Source: Terriglobales bacterium
GTDB lineage: Bacteria > Acidobacteriota > Terriglobia > Terriglobales > Acidobacteriaceae
DNA: 64,000 nucleotides
Assembly (NCBI GenBank): GCA_025936825.1
Contig: JAICSO010000021.1
Coordinates: 1-64,000, forward strand
Reading direction: 5' to 3'
The notes beneath the pieces were generated by a model. The model searched no databases and was not told the DNA's origin. It saw nothing but the letters and a program-made list of their open reading frames with translations. Below, piece by piece: positions 1,243 to 32,070 of the stretch (positions within the stretch are counted from its first letter, which is position 1; every line of letters starts with the position of its first letter). The position numbers and the translations under genes were made by a program.

Positions 1243-3435
1243 TCAGGCGCGCTGTGTTCCGCCCAATTTCTGCATTTCGCTAACAATTCTCGCCGTCCAG
1301 TCATTCACTTCATCCTCACGCAAGGTGCGGTCGTGCGACTGGAATTTCGCGCGCAGCAGAATTGAGTAGCTGCCGGCCAGCACCGATCCGCCACGGAAGA
1401 TTTCAACTGGACCGAAACTGCGCAACTCAGTAATGACAAGTCCCTGCACCGCTTTCTCGATCTGATCGAATGTAACTTTGTCCGGAAATAAGAATGAGAA
1501 ATCCCGTTCGACTCCAGGATATTTCGGTAATGGCTCGTAGCGAATAAGACGCAGGGAATGCTTATAAAGCTCCTCGGCATTGATCTCCGCGACGTAGACG
1601 TCCTGGCGCAGCTTTCGCCTGGTCACGACTTGCGGATGCAGCAGACCGAACTGCGCCAGCGGTGCGCCATTCACCAGTACTCGCGCAGACCGGCCGGGCT
1701 CATAGTACTCGGACGACTTGTCGTCGTACTGAAGTGTGTTGTGCTCGAAGGCGTCGAGCACTCTTTCGACGTCACCCTTGATCGAGCGGAACAGATCCAA
1801 CCCGGCCTCGCCTTTGCTCTTGTCGAGCACACCGCCTTGTGGCATGTCACGATTCAGAGCGGACGCCGTTGCCGCGAAACAGATCCGTGCATGTTCGGCG
1901 GTACCGAAGCCGCTGCCCTCGTAAATATCTCCCATCTCGAACAGGCGGACGTAATCCGTCCCACGATTGAGGTTGAAAGCTACCATCTCAAGCATCCCCG
2001 GCAGCAGCGATCCGCGCATGAGTGACGCTTCCTCACTCAGGGGGTTCGCGAGTTCCACGACCGGGGTCGACGAAAACGTCTCCGCATCTTCATTCGAGAC
2101 GAAGCTGAGTGAAACTGCCTCGTTATAGCCGAGCGCCAGCAACGTGGAGCGAGCCTTCGCAGCTTTCGCGGTTTCGGGGTTCTCAACGACTCCGCCCGAG
2201 AAAGATGGCAAGGTGTTCGCGAAGTTGTTGTAGCCGTGCAAGCGGGCGACCTCTTCAATCAGATCGATTTCCCGCTCGATATCGAGCCGCCAGCTTGGAA
2301 TCTGAACCGAGAATTCCGGTTGAGCGCCGGGCTCGGGGACGAGTTCGAAGCCAAGTCGCTTCAGGATCGCGAGGATTTGGTGGGTTTCCAGCTTCGACCC
2401 GAGCATGCGATGCACTTGGGAGATGCGCAAAACGACCGGCGCCTGGTCGATTTCGCGCGCGACCGCATCAATTTGGCTGCCTTCGAGTTCTCCGCCTCCA
2501 GACTCCATGATTCGTTGCGACACCAGCGCGCACGCCAGAGAAGTCGCGCCATAATCGGCACCGCGCTCAAAGCGATGGGAAGCGTCCGTATGCAGGCCGT
2601 GACGCTTGGCTGTTTTGCGGACTGCGACAGGATCGAACCATGCCGACTCGATGAGGATGTTCTTCGTCTTGTCCGTAATCATCGTGTCGAAGCCGCCCAT
2701 CACTCCCGCGAGAGCCACGGGTCGGTTCGCGTCGGCGATGATCAGGTCTTCGGACGAGAGCTTGCGGTCAACTCCATCGAGAGTTTTGAGCGTCTCGCCA
2801 TCACGTGCGCGGCGAACAACGATCTTGCCGCCCTGCAGAAGATCGAGATCGAAGGCGTGCGTGGGGTGGCCCATTTCCCACAGTGTGTAGTTGGAGGCGT
2901 CCGCTGCGTTGTTGATGGCGCGCTGATCAACGAGTGCGAGTCGCGAAGCAAGGTGCTCGGGCGAGTTGGCGATCTTCACCCCACGTACAATCTGTGCGGT
3001 GTAACGAGCGCAACCGTCCTTGTCGTCGATGACGATTGCAAATCCGCTGCCCGCACTTGAAGTGCTTCGGGAGGGCGCGGCTCCAGCCGTGCCGGATCGC
3101 GACCCAGAGTGGCTACCGGCTTCAGCCGCGGGATTTTGGGTGGAGCTGCGCTTCAGCGCAGCATTTCCCGACTCGCTTTCGCGAGGGGCTTTAGCCCCTG
3201 AGGTCTCAATTGGCTTCAGCGCGATTCCGTAAAACGCCGCCGCCTCGCGTGCGACGCCGTAATGGTTCATGGCATCAGGACGGTTTGTCCCGATCTCCAT
3301 CTCGAAGACCGTGTTCGCACCCTCGCCGGAAATTCCTTCTACAGCAATACCAATGCTGGTCAAATCTTCCGCAAGACGGCCATTGTCGACGGGAACGTCA
3401 ACGAACTCGCGAATCCATTGTGCAGAGAGTTTCAT
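1243..3435 (-). CDS. pheT: Phenylalanine--tRNA ligase beta subunit with repeat-derived insertion
   Basis: The beta subunit of the alpha2-beta2 class II enzyme that charges tRNA-Phe. The 730 residues run from a short N-terminal domain lacking the EMAP-like tRNA-binding insertion of the E. coli form ('MKLSAQWIREFVDVPV'), through the B3/4 region ('NYTLWEMGHPTHAFDLDLL', about 182-200, editing-type domain), the B5 domain and a catalytic-like core, to a C-terminal FDX-ACB domain of about 95 residues ('YEPLPKYPGVERDFSFLFPD') that contacts the tRNA anticodon. Residues about 79-129, rich in Ser, Gly and Ala, lie in a normally variable linker before 'CARYTAQIVRGVKI' and are encoded by an intergenic-type repeat (separate entry). 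It is the last gene of infC-rpmI-rplT-pheST, 72 bases after pheS. The identity is certain. Confidence 0.97.
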   Translation of the reverse strand: MKLSAQWIREFVDVPVDNGRLAEDLTSIGIAVEGISGEGANTVFEMEIGTNRPDAMNHYGVAREAAAFYGIALKPIETSGAKAPRESESGNAALKRSSTQNPAAEAGSHSGSRSGTAGAAPSRSTSSAGSGFAIVIDDKDGCARYTAQIVRGVKIANSPEHLASRLALVDQRAINNAADASNYTLWEMGHPTHAFDLDLLQGGKIVVRRARDGETLKTLDGVDRKLSSEDLIIADANRPVALAGVMGGFDTMITDKTKNILIESAWFDPVAVRKTAKRHGLHTDASHRFERGADYGATSLACALVSQRIMESGGGELEGSQIDAVAREIDQAPVVLRISQVHRMLGSKLETHQILAILKRLGFELVPEPGAQPEFSVQIPSWRLDIEREIDLIEEVARLHGYNNFANTLPSFSGGVVENPETAKAAKARSTLLALGYNEAVSLSFVSNEDAETFSSTPVVELANPLSEEASLMRGSLLPGMLEMVAFNLNRGTDYVRLFEMGDIYEGSGFGTAEHARICFAATASALNRDMPQGGVLDKSKGEAGLDLFRSIKGDVERVLDAFEHNTLQYDDKSSEYYEPGRSARVLVNGAPLAQFGLLHPQVVTRRKLRQDVYVAEINAEELYKHSLRLIRYEPLPKYPGVERDFSFLFPDKVTFDQIEKAVQGLVITELRSFGPVEIFRGGSVLAGSYSILLRAKFQSHDRTLREDEVNDWTARIVSEMQKLGGTQRA
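3062..3204. repeat. Composite palindromic element inside pheT
   Basis: The start (GTGCTTCGGGAGGGC, then the hairpin arm GCCGTGCC) and the end (GGGGCTTTAGCCCCTGAGGT, 3185-3204) match the start and end of the intergenic element at 11861-11929 in the same order. The middle holds further hairpins, such as GCTGCGC-TTCA-GCGCAGC (3145-3162). The first hairpin (3074-3093) is GGCGCGGC-TCCA-GCCGTGCC. The element is read in frame as about 48 pheT residues without a stop. Confidence 0.8.
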
Positions 3436-3507
3436 TGTTAGCCATCAGCCATCAGCCATCAGCCGTCAGCCATAACCTGATGGCTGACGGCTGAGAGCTG
3501 ACGGCTT
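3436..3507. repeat. CATCAGC-type inverted repeat between pheS and pheT
   Basis: A tandem run of CATCAGC/CGTCAGC units is followed by its reverse complement (TGATGGCTGACGGCTGAGAG), so the pheS-pheT spacer can fold into a long hairpin. Similar units occur at 36362-36390. Confidence 0.8.
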
Positions 3508-4617
3508 TCATCCAAACTGCTCCAAGAACCTCACATCACCCTGGAAGAAGAGTTGCAAATCGTCCAGGCCGTACTTCAACATCGCAATGCGATCGATGCC
3601 CATGCCGAACGCGAATCCTGAAACCTTCTCCGGGTCATAGCCGTTGTGCTTCACAAACTCGAACACGTTGGGATCCACCATGCCGCAGCCGAGAATTTCG
3701 ATCCATCCAGTCTGCTTGCACGGGCGGCAAGGATCGGAGCCGCGCTTTCCACTTCCGCCGCAGATGAAGCACGAAACGTACATCTCGGCGCTTGGCTCTG
3801 TGAACGGGAAGAATGATGGGCGAAACGCAGTCTTCGCGCTTGACCCGAATAGCGCCTTCATCGCGTGGTCCAGCGTACCTTTCAGGTCGCCAAAGGTGAT
3901 GTTGGTGTCCACAGCCAGACCTTCGACCTGATGAAACATCGGGGAATGGCTCGCATCTGGCGGATCGTTGCGATGCACCTTGCCCGGAATCACAATGCGG
4001 ACCGGCGGTCTCATCTTCTCCATGGTGCGAATCTGCACCGGAGAAGTGTGTGTGCGAAGGAGCAACTGCTCGCGCCGCGGCTTGGTTTCCTGGTTGGCGA
4101 GGAACAGCGTGTCTTGCGTGTCCCGCGCTGGGTGATTCGGCGGGAAGTTCAGCGCTTCGAAGTTGTAGTAGTCGGTCTCGATCACCGGACCTTCGGCAAC
4201 GGAATAGCCGAGGTTCTTAAACACCCCAACTATCTCGTTCATGGTGCGGATGATCGGGTGCTCCGCGCCGATCGGACGGCGAATGCCGGGAAGGGAAATA
4301 TCGAGGGAAGTGTCCGCACTAGCCGCGGGCTTTTTCTCGAGCGCAGCTTCGACCTTTTGCTCGACCTCGGCCTTGAGTTTGTTTACGCGTTGGCCGACAT
4401 CGCGCTTAGCGTCTTTGGGCGCGGCTTTGAGCCAGAGTTCGTTGATCTGAGTGAGAATGCCGTCTTTGCGCGCCAGCCAACGGTCACGGAAGGCCTTGCG
4501 CGCGTCAGCGTTCCCAGGTTGCGCGGATTCCTCCTCCAACGCAGATAAGAGTTCGGCGACCGCGCCGTCCAGCGCTGCCGGCGAAAAATCCTTCAGTTTG
4601 GGAACGGTGTAGGCCAC
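3508..4617 (-). CDS. pheS: Phenylalanine--tRNA ligase alpha subunit
   Basis: The catalytic subunit of PheRS, which activates phenylalanine and transfers it to tRNA-Phe. The 369 residues comprise an N-terminal coiled-coil arm (about 1-100) and a class II core. Seen are 'GPVIETDYYNFEALNFP' (about 143-159), motif 2 'FHQVEGLAVD' (about 228-237) and motif 3 'GFAFGMGIDRIAMLKYGL' near the C-terminus. A 'CFICGGSGKRGSDPCRPC' segment in the core has a CxxC...CxxC layout that could bind zinc, a variation found in some bacteria. It lies downstream of rplT after a 308-base repeat-filled spacer and upstream of pheT. The identity is certain. Confidence 0.97.
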   Translation of the reverse strand: MAYTVPKLKDFSPAALDGAVAELLSALEEESAQPGNADARKAFRDRWLARKDGILTQINELWLKAAPKDAKRDVGQRVNKLKAEVEQKVEAALEKKPAASADTSLDISLPGIRRPIGAEHPIIRTMNEIVGVFKNLGYSVAEGPVIETDYYNFEALNFPPNHPARDTQDTLFLANQETKPRREQLLLRTHTSPVQIRTMEKMRPPVRIVIPGKVHRNDPPDASHSPMFHQVEGLAVDTNITFGDLKGTLDHAMKALFGSSAKTAFRPSFFPFTEPSAEMYVSCFICGGSGKRGSDPCRPCKQTGWIEILGCGMVDPNVFEFVKHNGYDPEKVSGFAFGMGIDRIAMLKYGLDDLQLFFQGDVRFLEQFG

Positions 4618-4925
4618 GTGTTAACAGCCGCTTCAGCAGCGGCATTTACTTAGCCCAGCACGTCAGTGCTGGGTAAGCTAGTCCCCGCGACCGAGTCCCG
4701 TCAGGGACGGCACTCGCCGCTGCCGATAATTCAAAAACCGGGACAGTCAGCACCACAGCAGGCTCCTCGATTCGCGGAATCATTCGCAAGGCGAATGATT
4801 CTGCTCCAACTCGGAACGACAAAGTATAAAGGATTCGTATCGGCACGCCTGAAGGCGTGCCCTGATACAAACCCTTAGCAGAAATTCCGCTGCGGGAAAT
4901 AACGGCGTTTTATTGAAGGCTGGTC
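4618..4925. repeat. Palindrome-rich spacer between rplT and pheS
   Basis: No credible gene. It holds CCCAGCAC-GTCA-GTGCTGGG (4654-4673) and GGCACGCC-TGAA-GGCGTGCC (4842-4861), both perfect 8-bp stems with 4-base loops. It also has GTCCC-GTCA-GGGAC near 4697 and a 10-bp stem AATCATTCGC/GCGAATGATT. The GAGTCCCG..AGGGACGGCAC string recurs, diverged, near 28650 and 42400. A 74-codon minus frame (4646-4870) through these palindromes is discounted. Confidence 0.8.
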
Positions 4926-11860: not shown

Positions 11861-11929
11861 GTGCTCGGGAGGGCATGGCTTCAGCCGTGCCGCCTGAGCC
11901 GCAAGAAATGGGGCTTTAGCCCCTGAGGT
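11861..11929. repeat. Composite palindromic element, intergenic copy
   Basis: It starts GTGCTCGGGAGGGC and forms GGCATGGC-TTCA-GCCGTGCC (11872-11891; one arm position G-T). It ends in GGGGCTTTAGCCCCTGAGGT (11910-11929). The same start and end modules occur in the same order inside pheT. Confidence 0.85.
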
Positions 11930-30027: not shown

Positions 30028-30588
30028 ATGTCTTTGGGACTGGAGCGGTTTTATGGCAGCGGCGACTTGCACTTCATCACCGAAAGTTGTTATCACCGTT
30101 TACCGCTTCTCGGTTCGCCGTGTCGTCGAGACCTGTTTCTCGAAGTTTTCGAACAAGTGCGCCAGCGATATCAGTTAGTCGTTGTGGCCTACGTCGTCAT
30201 GCCCGAGCATTTTCACCTTCTGATCAGCGAACCAGGGCGAGGTAATCCTTCCATTGTGATTCAAGCGCTGAAGCTCGGGATCGCGCGTCGTGTCATCGCA
30301 GCGGAGAAAAGGTGTGAGCGGCGATACGAAGGCCAAAACTTGTTACGGCAGGAGGCGCCCTGTTCACGCATGTGGGAGGCGCGCTTTTACGACTACAACG
30401 TTTGGACCCAACCCAAGCGCGTGGAGAAGATTCGTTACATACATCGCAATCCGGTTCGGCGAGGCTTGGTGGAGAATCCGGAACAGTGGCGATGGAGCAG
30501 CTTCAGAGCTTACGCCTACGAAGAATCGGGTCCGGTGCGGGTGAATGACTGGAGCGTGCTGAAGCTGAAAGTCCGTTTAGCTTCGTGA
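30028..30588 (+). mobile_element. REP-associated tyrosine transposase (RAYT, IS200/IS605-like Y1 family)
   Basis: 186 residues. 'YVVMPEHFHLLISEPG' carries the HUH-type histidine pair (H61, H63) after a hydrophobic strand. The C-terminal part has 'FYDYNVW' and 'RYIHRNPVRRGLVENPEQWRWSSFRAY', the RAYT hallmark, whose Tyr (Y137 in YIHRNPV) is the likely nucleophile. RAYTs cut single-stranded REP hairpins and are thought to spread them. The gene is flanked by perfect 49-nt inverted REP copies (29908-29956, 30808-30856) and a third, interrupted copy (30610-30690). A diverged copy of its own 3' end follows. All motifs are intact, so it may be active. Confidence 0.9.
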
Positions 30589-31838: not shown

Positions 31839-31885
31839 TGCGGTGCTTCAGGGTCTTAAGCCCCGTGTCTTCATGGTGCTCGTTC

Positions 31886-32070
31886 GGCACGACTGATGTC
31901 GTGCCCTCCCGGCCCTCGTTCCTCATCGCGACGTCCGGTACGAGTGAACTCGTGGCGTCCCGATAGTTCTCCCTCACATGTCGGACAAGAATGTCCGACC
32001 TACACAAGCAGCGATCATGGCGGGCAAGAGTGCCCGCCCACACGAACGACGTCGGACAAGAATGTCCCAC
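31886..32070. repeat. Cluster of five short palindromes
   Basis: GGCACGAC-TGAT-GTCGTGCC (31886-31905), ACGAGT-GA-ACTCGT (31940-31953), GTCGGACA-AGAA-TGTCCGAC (31980-31999), GGCGGGCA-AGAG-TGCCCGCC (32019-32038) and GTCGGACA-AGAA-TGTCCCAC (32051-32070, one mismatch). The AGAA/AGAG loops are shared while arms change together. It fills the space between two convergent genes. Confidence 0.88.

Follow-up and report, generated by a model that had tools for sequence, protein, structure and literature searches.

How does the gene of a tRNA synthetase come to carry, in its reading frame, a run of DNA hairpins of a kind also found between genes? This question is raised by pheT in the window, the whole stretch of 64,000 nucleotides analysed here, for which a sequence-only reading had proposed that an intergenic palindromic element is read in frame inside the gene. 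Our analysis indicates that the pheT insert is very probably a composite of REP-type elements. The basic unit, a pair of hairpins termed H1 and H2, would correspond to the ends of an element encoding a REP-associated tyrosine transposase (RAYT), wherein an older arrival of this unit was followed by later additions.

The PheT linker is expanded by hairpin modules

The pheT reading frame of the source genome (G000) runs for 730 amino acids without a stop, as had been claimed, and the gene is intact. Its product scores above the cut-off of the TIGR00472 equivalog model (539.7 bits against 402.65), and Pfam recognizes the B3/4 (B3_4), B5, CLM and FDX-ACB domains. The linker preceding B3/4 comprises 54 residues, compared with 11 to 47 in the 29 other loci of a 30-locus comparison (drawn from 60 genomes with a pheT match), 21 of which have 11 to 18. 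The features of this region are as follows.

1243 to 3435, minus strand: pheT, the host gene, encoding the phenylalanine--tRNA ligase beta subunit (730 amino acids; TIGR00472 equivalog and Pfam domains)
3046 to 3207, minus strand: expanded linker, PheT residues 77 to 130 (54 residues), largely hairpin modules (linker lengths in 30 loci; AlphaFold2)
3184 to 3203, minus strand: H1, a CCTCAG foot and hairpin GGGGCTAAAGCCCC; foot and hairpin recur in other copies
3145 to 3162, minus strand: H3, hairpin GCTGCGCTGAAGCGCAGC, with TCCACCCAAAAT (3144-3133) coming next on the pheT strand; a similar hairpin flanks a RAYT fragment of G003 (L073/L328)
3117 to 3128, minus strand: H4, hairpin CGGCTGAAGCCG (hairpin count against shuffles)
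3068 to 3093, minus strand: H2, hairpin GGCACGGCTGGAGCCGCGCC (8 of 9 pairs) with a CTCCCG tail, a recurrent module
3053 to 3065, minus strand: small palindrome of the expanded linker, GCACTTGAAGTGC, downstream of H2 (hairpin count against shuffles)

Five hairpins whose arms are 5 or longer lie in the 165 bases from 3046 to 3210 (3053-3065, 3078-3089, 3117-3128, 3145-3162 and 3184-3199), compared with a mean of 0.66 in shuffled sequences, and none of 1000 shuffles reached five; the remaining 2028 bases of pheT contain six. Raising the minimum arm length to 6 weakens the contrast, leaving two hairpins in the insert, a count that 19 of 1000 shuffles reach.

An AlphaFold2 model of PheT (28 sequences; mean pLDDT 85.1, pTM 0.55) assigns a pLDDT of at least 90 to 479 of the 730 residues. 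Residues 81 to 129 are predicted to be unstructured, with pLDDT below 50 and no secondary structure. A disordered linker of this kind would presumably be tolerated, and the insert may be translated in the cell with a near-neutral effect on the enzyme.

Another repeat, of the CAGCCATCAGC type, lies at 3440-3509 between pheS and pheT, and the pheT linker of G013 (L047) contains an in-frame repeat resembling it.

The modules belong to a dispersed repeat family

As the sequence-only reading had noted, the two ends of the pheT insert match, in the same order, the modules of an intergenic element at 11861-11929. Copies elsewhere in the window are listed below.

11861 to 11929, minus strand: intergenic copy (L006) with H1 (11910-11923), a spacer, and H2 with its tail (11866-11891), the modules shared with pheT
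4842 to 4868, plus strand: H2-type hairpin GGCACGCCTGAAGGCGTGCC carrying the tail CTGATAC, an arrangement shared by the 3' ends of two RAYT genes of relatives (L075, L063)
31846 to 31911, plus strand: decayed H1-H2 copy, intergenic (L021)

The module CGGGAGGGC..GGCT.CAGCCGTGCC (plus strand) is present at both 3068-3093 and 11866-11891, compared with a mean of 0.00 in 100 shuffles, and GGGGCTTTAGCCCC is present at both 3185-3198 and 11910-11923, with 0.27 expected at up to 2 mismatches. A chance origin of the modules and hairpins was rejected on the basis of the shuffles. The earlier coordinates (3062 to 3204) were right as far as they go, the insert reaching past 3062 to about 3046. The insert is not, as had been supposed, a single copy like the intergenic element, because two further hairpins (3117-3128 and 3145-3162) separate H1 and H2 and make it longer. 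The remaining description stands: the palindromic element occurs between genes as well as in pheT, where the translated frame is kept, and the insert is not a conserved protein domain. An Rfam scan of the window returned no matches.

The element also recurs in the genome as predicted, with 22 H2 matches at up to 3 mismatches and none for a reversed control. A slightly different pattern gave 30 matches in G000 and 33 in G004, again with none for the reversed control. H2 was found in six of the eight genomes of the genus; G005 and G006 have no H2 match and no PF01797 hit either. A search covering 84,980 species, each represented by one genome, gave at least 118 stretches with the exact 22-base H2, and by our reading all listed titles name Acidobacteriota.

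We examined 205 distinct H2 copies in fetched loci (32 from G000, 25 from G004 and 148 from named contigs), defined by at most 3 mismatches and at least 8 of 9 pairs, with each palindrome counted once. An H1 core lies within 95 nt upstream of 127 of them, at a distance of 20 to 24 nt in 120 of these pairs, compared with none in 193 control stretches located 300 to 395 nt upstream. CCTCAG immediately precedes H1 in 82 of the 127 pairs, even though this foot was not part of the search pattern. The unit therefore described by these copies is about 68 bp long and consists of the CCTCAG foot, H1 (GGGGCTAAAGCCCC type), a spacer of 20 to 24 nt whose length is fixed and whose sequence varies, H2 (GGCACGGCTGAAGCCGTGCC type) and a CT tail, most commonly CTTTCAA, CTGATAC or CTTCCCG. 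The two hairpins form a BIME-like inverted pair with the conserved ends outward (CCTCAG-H1 ... H2-CT tail). On the plus strand, GGAG had at first seemed to be the foot of both H2 and H3, an idea that was dropped, the ends conserved over many copies being CCTCAG and the CT tail. Neither the GT[AG]G foot known from REPs of the E. coli type nor a target site or excision intermediate was seen. When GGCACGGCTGAAGCCGTGCC is read in six frames, TGA closes one sense frame and the five others are open; copies landing in frame in a flexible linker could therefore be tolerated and translated.

One genome, G051, has 95 H2 matches (some palindromes perhaps counted twice), many of them in inverted pairs about 100 to 135 bp apart, and has no RAYT of the subfamily described below. 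These pairs may constitute a non-autonomous form of another kind.

RAYT genes of relatives have the unit at their ends

In relatives, the H1-H2 unit constitutes the ends of Y1 transposase genes, inverted upstream and direct downstream. The open reading frames of L075 and L063 extend through the downstream H1 and H2, which encode the C-terminal tail of the protein (..PPQGLKPSNSLLLIGTPEGVP and ..LPQGLKPRQILLPTGTSKDVP; the H1/H2 pair can encode ..PPQGLKP..GTPEGVP as such a tail), and the CTGATAC tail supplies the stop codon. All three proteins scanned (L075, L063 and L070) score above the cut-off of NF047646, the NCBIfam model for REP-associated tyrosine transposases.

A search with the L075 protein gave 34 matches in related Terriglobia, 30 of which were taken as loci of this RAYT subfamily. 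Of the 30 genes, 23 have hairpins with a CT..AG core on both sides at a distance of up to 400 nt, and 27 have them on at least one side, compared with 3 of 55 control segments; L319, L329 and L331 have such a hairpin on neither side. When the three genes seen beforehand are set aside (L075, L063 and L073, equivalent to L306, L307 and L328), hairpins are on both sides of 20 of 27. At other Y1 transposase loci of the genus, a set that leaves out L071 (a subfamily member) and L072 and uses reading frames on the match strand, the corresponding values are 1 of 24 on both sides and 3 of 24 on either side, with 4 of 43 for controls. The hairpin arms often agree across the two sides of one RAYT locus and differ between loci (GCAGGCC at L310, CAGGAGCC at L326), and H3 of pheT resembles the hairpins around the truncated RAYT gene of G003.

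The two also co-vary in their distribution. Among 61 genomes, the RAYT subfamily is present in 24, H2 in 32 and both in 23, wherein H2 occurs in 23 of 24 RAYT-positive and 9 of 37 RAYT-negative genomes (Fisher p 2.7e-8, a value that ignores relatedness). Within the family, H2 occurs in 22 of 23 RAYT-positive and 8 of 14 RAYT-negative genomes (p 0.007, likewise ignoring relatedness). The one RAYT-positive genome that lacks H2 is G019. No subfamily RAYT was found in G000 at E <= 1e-20 despite its H2 copies, and therefore movement in this genome would be either past or the work of another enzyme. The other genomes with H2 and no subfamily RAYT are G007, G009, G012, G021, G025, G028, G029 and G051.

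These observations point to H1 and H2 as the ends of a RAYT-encoding element. Cut-down copies lacking the gene lie between genes, presumably spread by RAYT acting on single-stranded hairpins. The hairpin repeat is probably mobile. It might instead have been moved by something other than this RAYT subfamily, as a MITE served by another transposase or through recombination or template switching between hairpins. The lack of a close RAYT in G000, the shuffled appearance of composite inserts such as H1-H3-H4-H2 and the presence in the genus of several further Y1 transposases that have their own hairpins would all suit such a mover. We nevertheless consider it unlikely, given that H1/H2-like hairpins with locus-specific arms flank the subfamily RAYT genes and that the presence of the two co-varies.

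The window contains a Y1 transposase gene of its own at 30028-30588 (PF01797 hit), surrounded by GTCTCGCGGTTTTCGAGAC-type hairpins that look unrelated to H1 and H2. It was considered as the driver and rejected, as it lies among these other hairpins and its locus has no H1 or H2 match at the mismatch limits used. The genus as a whole is rich in Y1 transposases (L053-L082), several of which have their own hairpins at both ends (CCCAGCACGTAAGTGCTGGG, GGTCGGACATTCCTGTCCGACC), and the window, too, contains hairpins like those of other Y1 transposases, such as the ones near 4653 and 31980.

In-frame copies occur in loops of other proteins

Open reading frames over H2 were surveyed for 63 matches in 51 loci, some of them overlapping, that include all 30 matches of G000 and part of the 33 of G004; 10 reading frames were scanned. 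Five of the 30 G000 matches are in frame within pheT or Pfam-named genes, namely pheT, moaA, murC and dusB (twice), the other reading frames over matches being short or unscanned. The sampled G004 loci add in-frame copies in moaA, mnmG and the gene of an ABC protein that we take to be ModC-like. Among named Acidobacteriota, 20 of 21 long reading frames over an exact H2 were scanned (L297 was left out). In-frame elements with family domains on both sides or around them were found in MoaA, BirA, TilS (two copies), RarA/MgsA, HyuA and CarB, and possibly in AsmA. In four others a domain is found on just one side, and nine long reading frames have no Pfam match and may not be genes.

For MoaA, MurC and DusB, loop lengths were measured at 24 loci each, from 29, 31 and 29 genomes with matches, and the loop was located in 72 of 72. 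The MoaA loop has 92, 82, 25 and 25 residues in G000, G003, G002 and G004, 33 in G013 and 2 to 10 in the other 19. The MurC loop has 72 and 87 residues in G000 and G002, 44 to 58 in G001, G003, G004 and G007, and 26 to 37 in the other 18. The DusB loop has 103 residues in G000, 22 to 40 in six other loci, 11 in G014 and 5 to 6 in the other 16. H2 lies inside the loop at four MoaA loci, two MurC loci (a third match, L148, is poor) and one DusB locus; the other expansions contain hairpins of other families or none that are visible, as in DusB of G005 and G006, where no hairpin was seen. The MoaA loop of G003 contains two units in tandem. The loop of G001, the sister of G004 (SH-aLRT 98), is only 7 residues long, and this suggests that MoaA loops gained the element separately.

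The reading frames used are not uniform. GTAEAVP and variants are read in PheT, MoaA, TilS, CarB and others, GTASAVP in RarA, and the opposite strand (HGFSRA type) in MurC and MnmG. Two further stretches of G004 MnmG (L113:927-2999), NDQRPTTND and CHLERSE, resemble additional repeat-derived inserts, and in the search table the murC matches of G006 (L144) and G005 (L147) each carry a flag for a single in-frame stop.

An element that encodes the tail of its RAYT, has mostly open frames and keeps a fixed geometry could therefore provide a standing supply of new protein loops. We tentatively raise the broader possibility that flexible loops of essential enzymes serve a REP/RAYT lineage of Acidobacteriota as a niche in which to land repeatedly. 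Those of MoaA, MurC and PheT may have been refilled by it in sister species, where other hairpin families may likewise have filled the loops of DusB, MurC and MoaA.

The pheT insert was built in more than one step

Outside the genus, the PheT linker has 11 to 18 residues in 20 of 22 loci and 29 in G008 and G033, and none of the 22 loci has an H2 match. The sequence-only reading had expected close relatives to lack residues 79 to 129 exactly at the edges of the element. Shorter linkers free of H2 are indeed found outside the genus, but the relatives within it retain an older two-hairpin unit, common to most of the genus, and the exact edges were not observed. Nor was an exact empty site for pheT found at the nucleotide level: outside the genus the relatives have diverged too far, and within it most members share the older copy.

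The eight members of the genus group as a single clade (SH-aLRT 99) in a quick tree from which the linker was left out. The pheT gene of G007 has the full unit in a 21-residue linker (ACCTCAG-CGGCTAAAGCC, 21 nt, GGCTCGGCTAAAGCCGAGCC-CTTTCAA), wherein the modules ACCTCAGCGGCTAAAGCC and GGCTCGGCTAAAGCCGAGCC-CTTTCAA are recognizable on either side of the 21 nt. The same unit is present in decayed form in G003, again in a linker of 21 residues. G002 has H1-H2 and additional residues, G004 has an extra H2-H3 between H1 and H2, and G000 has H3 and H4 in that interval. The linker of G001 looks decayed, and no unit was seen in those of G005 and G006. The differing linkers therefore point to an old insertion followed by at least two different enlargements. 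Thus, the pheT insert is not one recent copy, but an older H1-H2 unit common to most of the genus that was enlarged later in G000 and differently in G004. On this reconstruction, the unit would have entered pheT in an ancestor of most of the genus, after which G000 would have gained H3 and H4 within it and G004 would have gained H2-H3.

The same comparisons bear on whether the pheT hairpins owe their retention to a role at the DNA or mRNA level, such as translational control of PheRS or binding of nucleoid proteins, with the amino acids as a by-product. REPs have roles in DNA topology and nucleoid structure according to the available text of PMC12306157, and the stems of the coding copies are changed on both sides at two positions (5 cells among 15 matches). 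Yet the same 15 matches contain 11 broken stem cells (7 without the poor match L148), the copies in G003 and G001 look decayed, and the 22 pheT loci outside the genus do without H2. Arm variants such as GGCACGAC..GTCGTGCC occur genome-wide, and the double stem changes are therefore explained by separate arrivals. We regard such a function as improbable.

Growth by slippage of a GC-rich Ser/Gly/Ala linker that looks palindromic by accident would suit low-complexity residues at a variable position, including the 29-residue linkers of G008 and G033, but is highly improbable against ordered shared modules (0.00 expected), five hairpins reached in 0 of 1000 shuffles, 22 genomic matches against none, and identical modules in loops of other genes. 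An assembly or binning artefact, for which one might cite the mostly fragmented genomes of the relatives and the low completeness of some, is equally hard to credit when separate assemblies (G002, G003, G004 and G007) have related in-frame inserts at the same linker.

Discussion

These Acidobacteriota seem to build new, probably floppy protein loops from selfish DNA. In-frame REPs are already known elsewhere, and the case of pheT brings protein-coding palindromes to a soil phylum that is large and mostly free-living, links them to a transposase lineage that can be identified, and involves repeated use of the same loops of housekeeping genes. The old question of how coding palindromes originate becomes testable in culturable bacteria. 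A caution also follows, in that linker lengths of acidobacterial proteins can be scars of mobile DNA. A full-text literature search, with most subscription papers outside its coverage, returned no report of coding REPs in Acidobacteriota.

We know of no RAYT partner for Rickettsia palindromic elements (RPE). The sequence-only reading had envisaged a process similar to theirs, and its observation of a palindromic element read in frame holds. As with RPE, the host genes are unrelated, those of the H1/H2 element encoding PheT, MoaA, DusB, MurC, MnmG, the ModC-like protein, TilS, CarB, BirA, HyuA and RarA. This likeness to RPE is one of description, taken from the available portion of PMC3733652. 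Kinship with the Rickettsia elements is not supported as such, and a Rickettsia-type element was dropped as the class, because the anatomy and the partner genes agree with REP/RAYT systems. The sequence-only reading also called coding palindromes best known from Rickettsia; that same portion gives accounts of REPs within genes of several other species, tRNA synthetases included.

Two other systems come from the same phylum. The TIRYT/TIRtron transposases of K. versatilis, T. saanensis, A. capsulatum and G. mallensis are likewise acidobacterial Y1 transposases with flanking inverted repeats, and those of K. versatilis ORF1552 form a repeated family; the likeness is by description, and the accessible part of the TIRYT account (PMC3733652) differs in reporting no coding insertions. 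Class 3 TnpA-Y1, from Acidobacteria and others, shares the phylum and the high-copy hairpins, about 600 in Solibacter, according to the available text of PMC6006769. Its motifs there are NHVH / W[TA] / YV..EQ, compared with DHFH or EHIH / WQ / YI..NP in L075 and L070.

The closest match is to REP/BIME sequences and their RAYT (TnpAREP) partners. As in those systems, there are many short, imperfect palindromes per genome, arranged in inverted pairs, which in relatives only are found on the flanks of a Y1 HuH transposase above the NF047646 cut-off. Members of this class are also known to insert in frame into genes (PMC3733652; PMC6006769, each as far as its available text goes); the latter describes REP insertions in tnpAREP genes that preserve the frame, makes an argument from flexible loops and mentions REP subclasses with atypical structures. 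The elements described here differ in having a CCTCAG foot rather than GT[AG]G, two distinct hairpins at a fixed distance of 20 to 24 nt, a RAYT tail encoded by the element itself, and the same loops reused in orthologous housekeeping genes.
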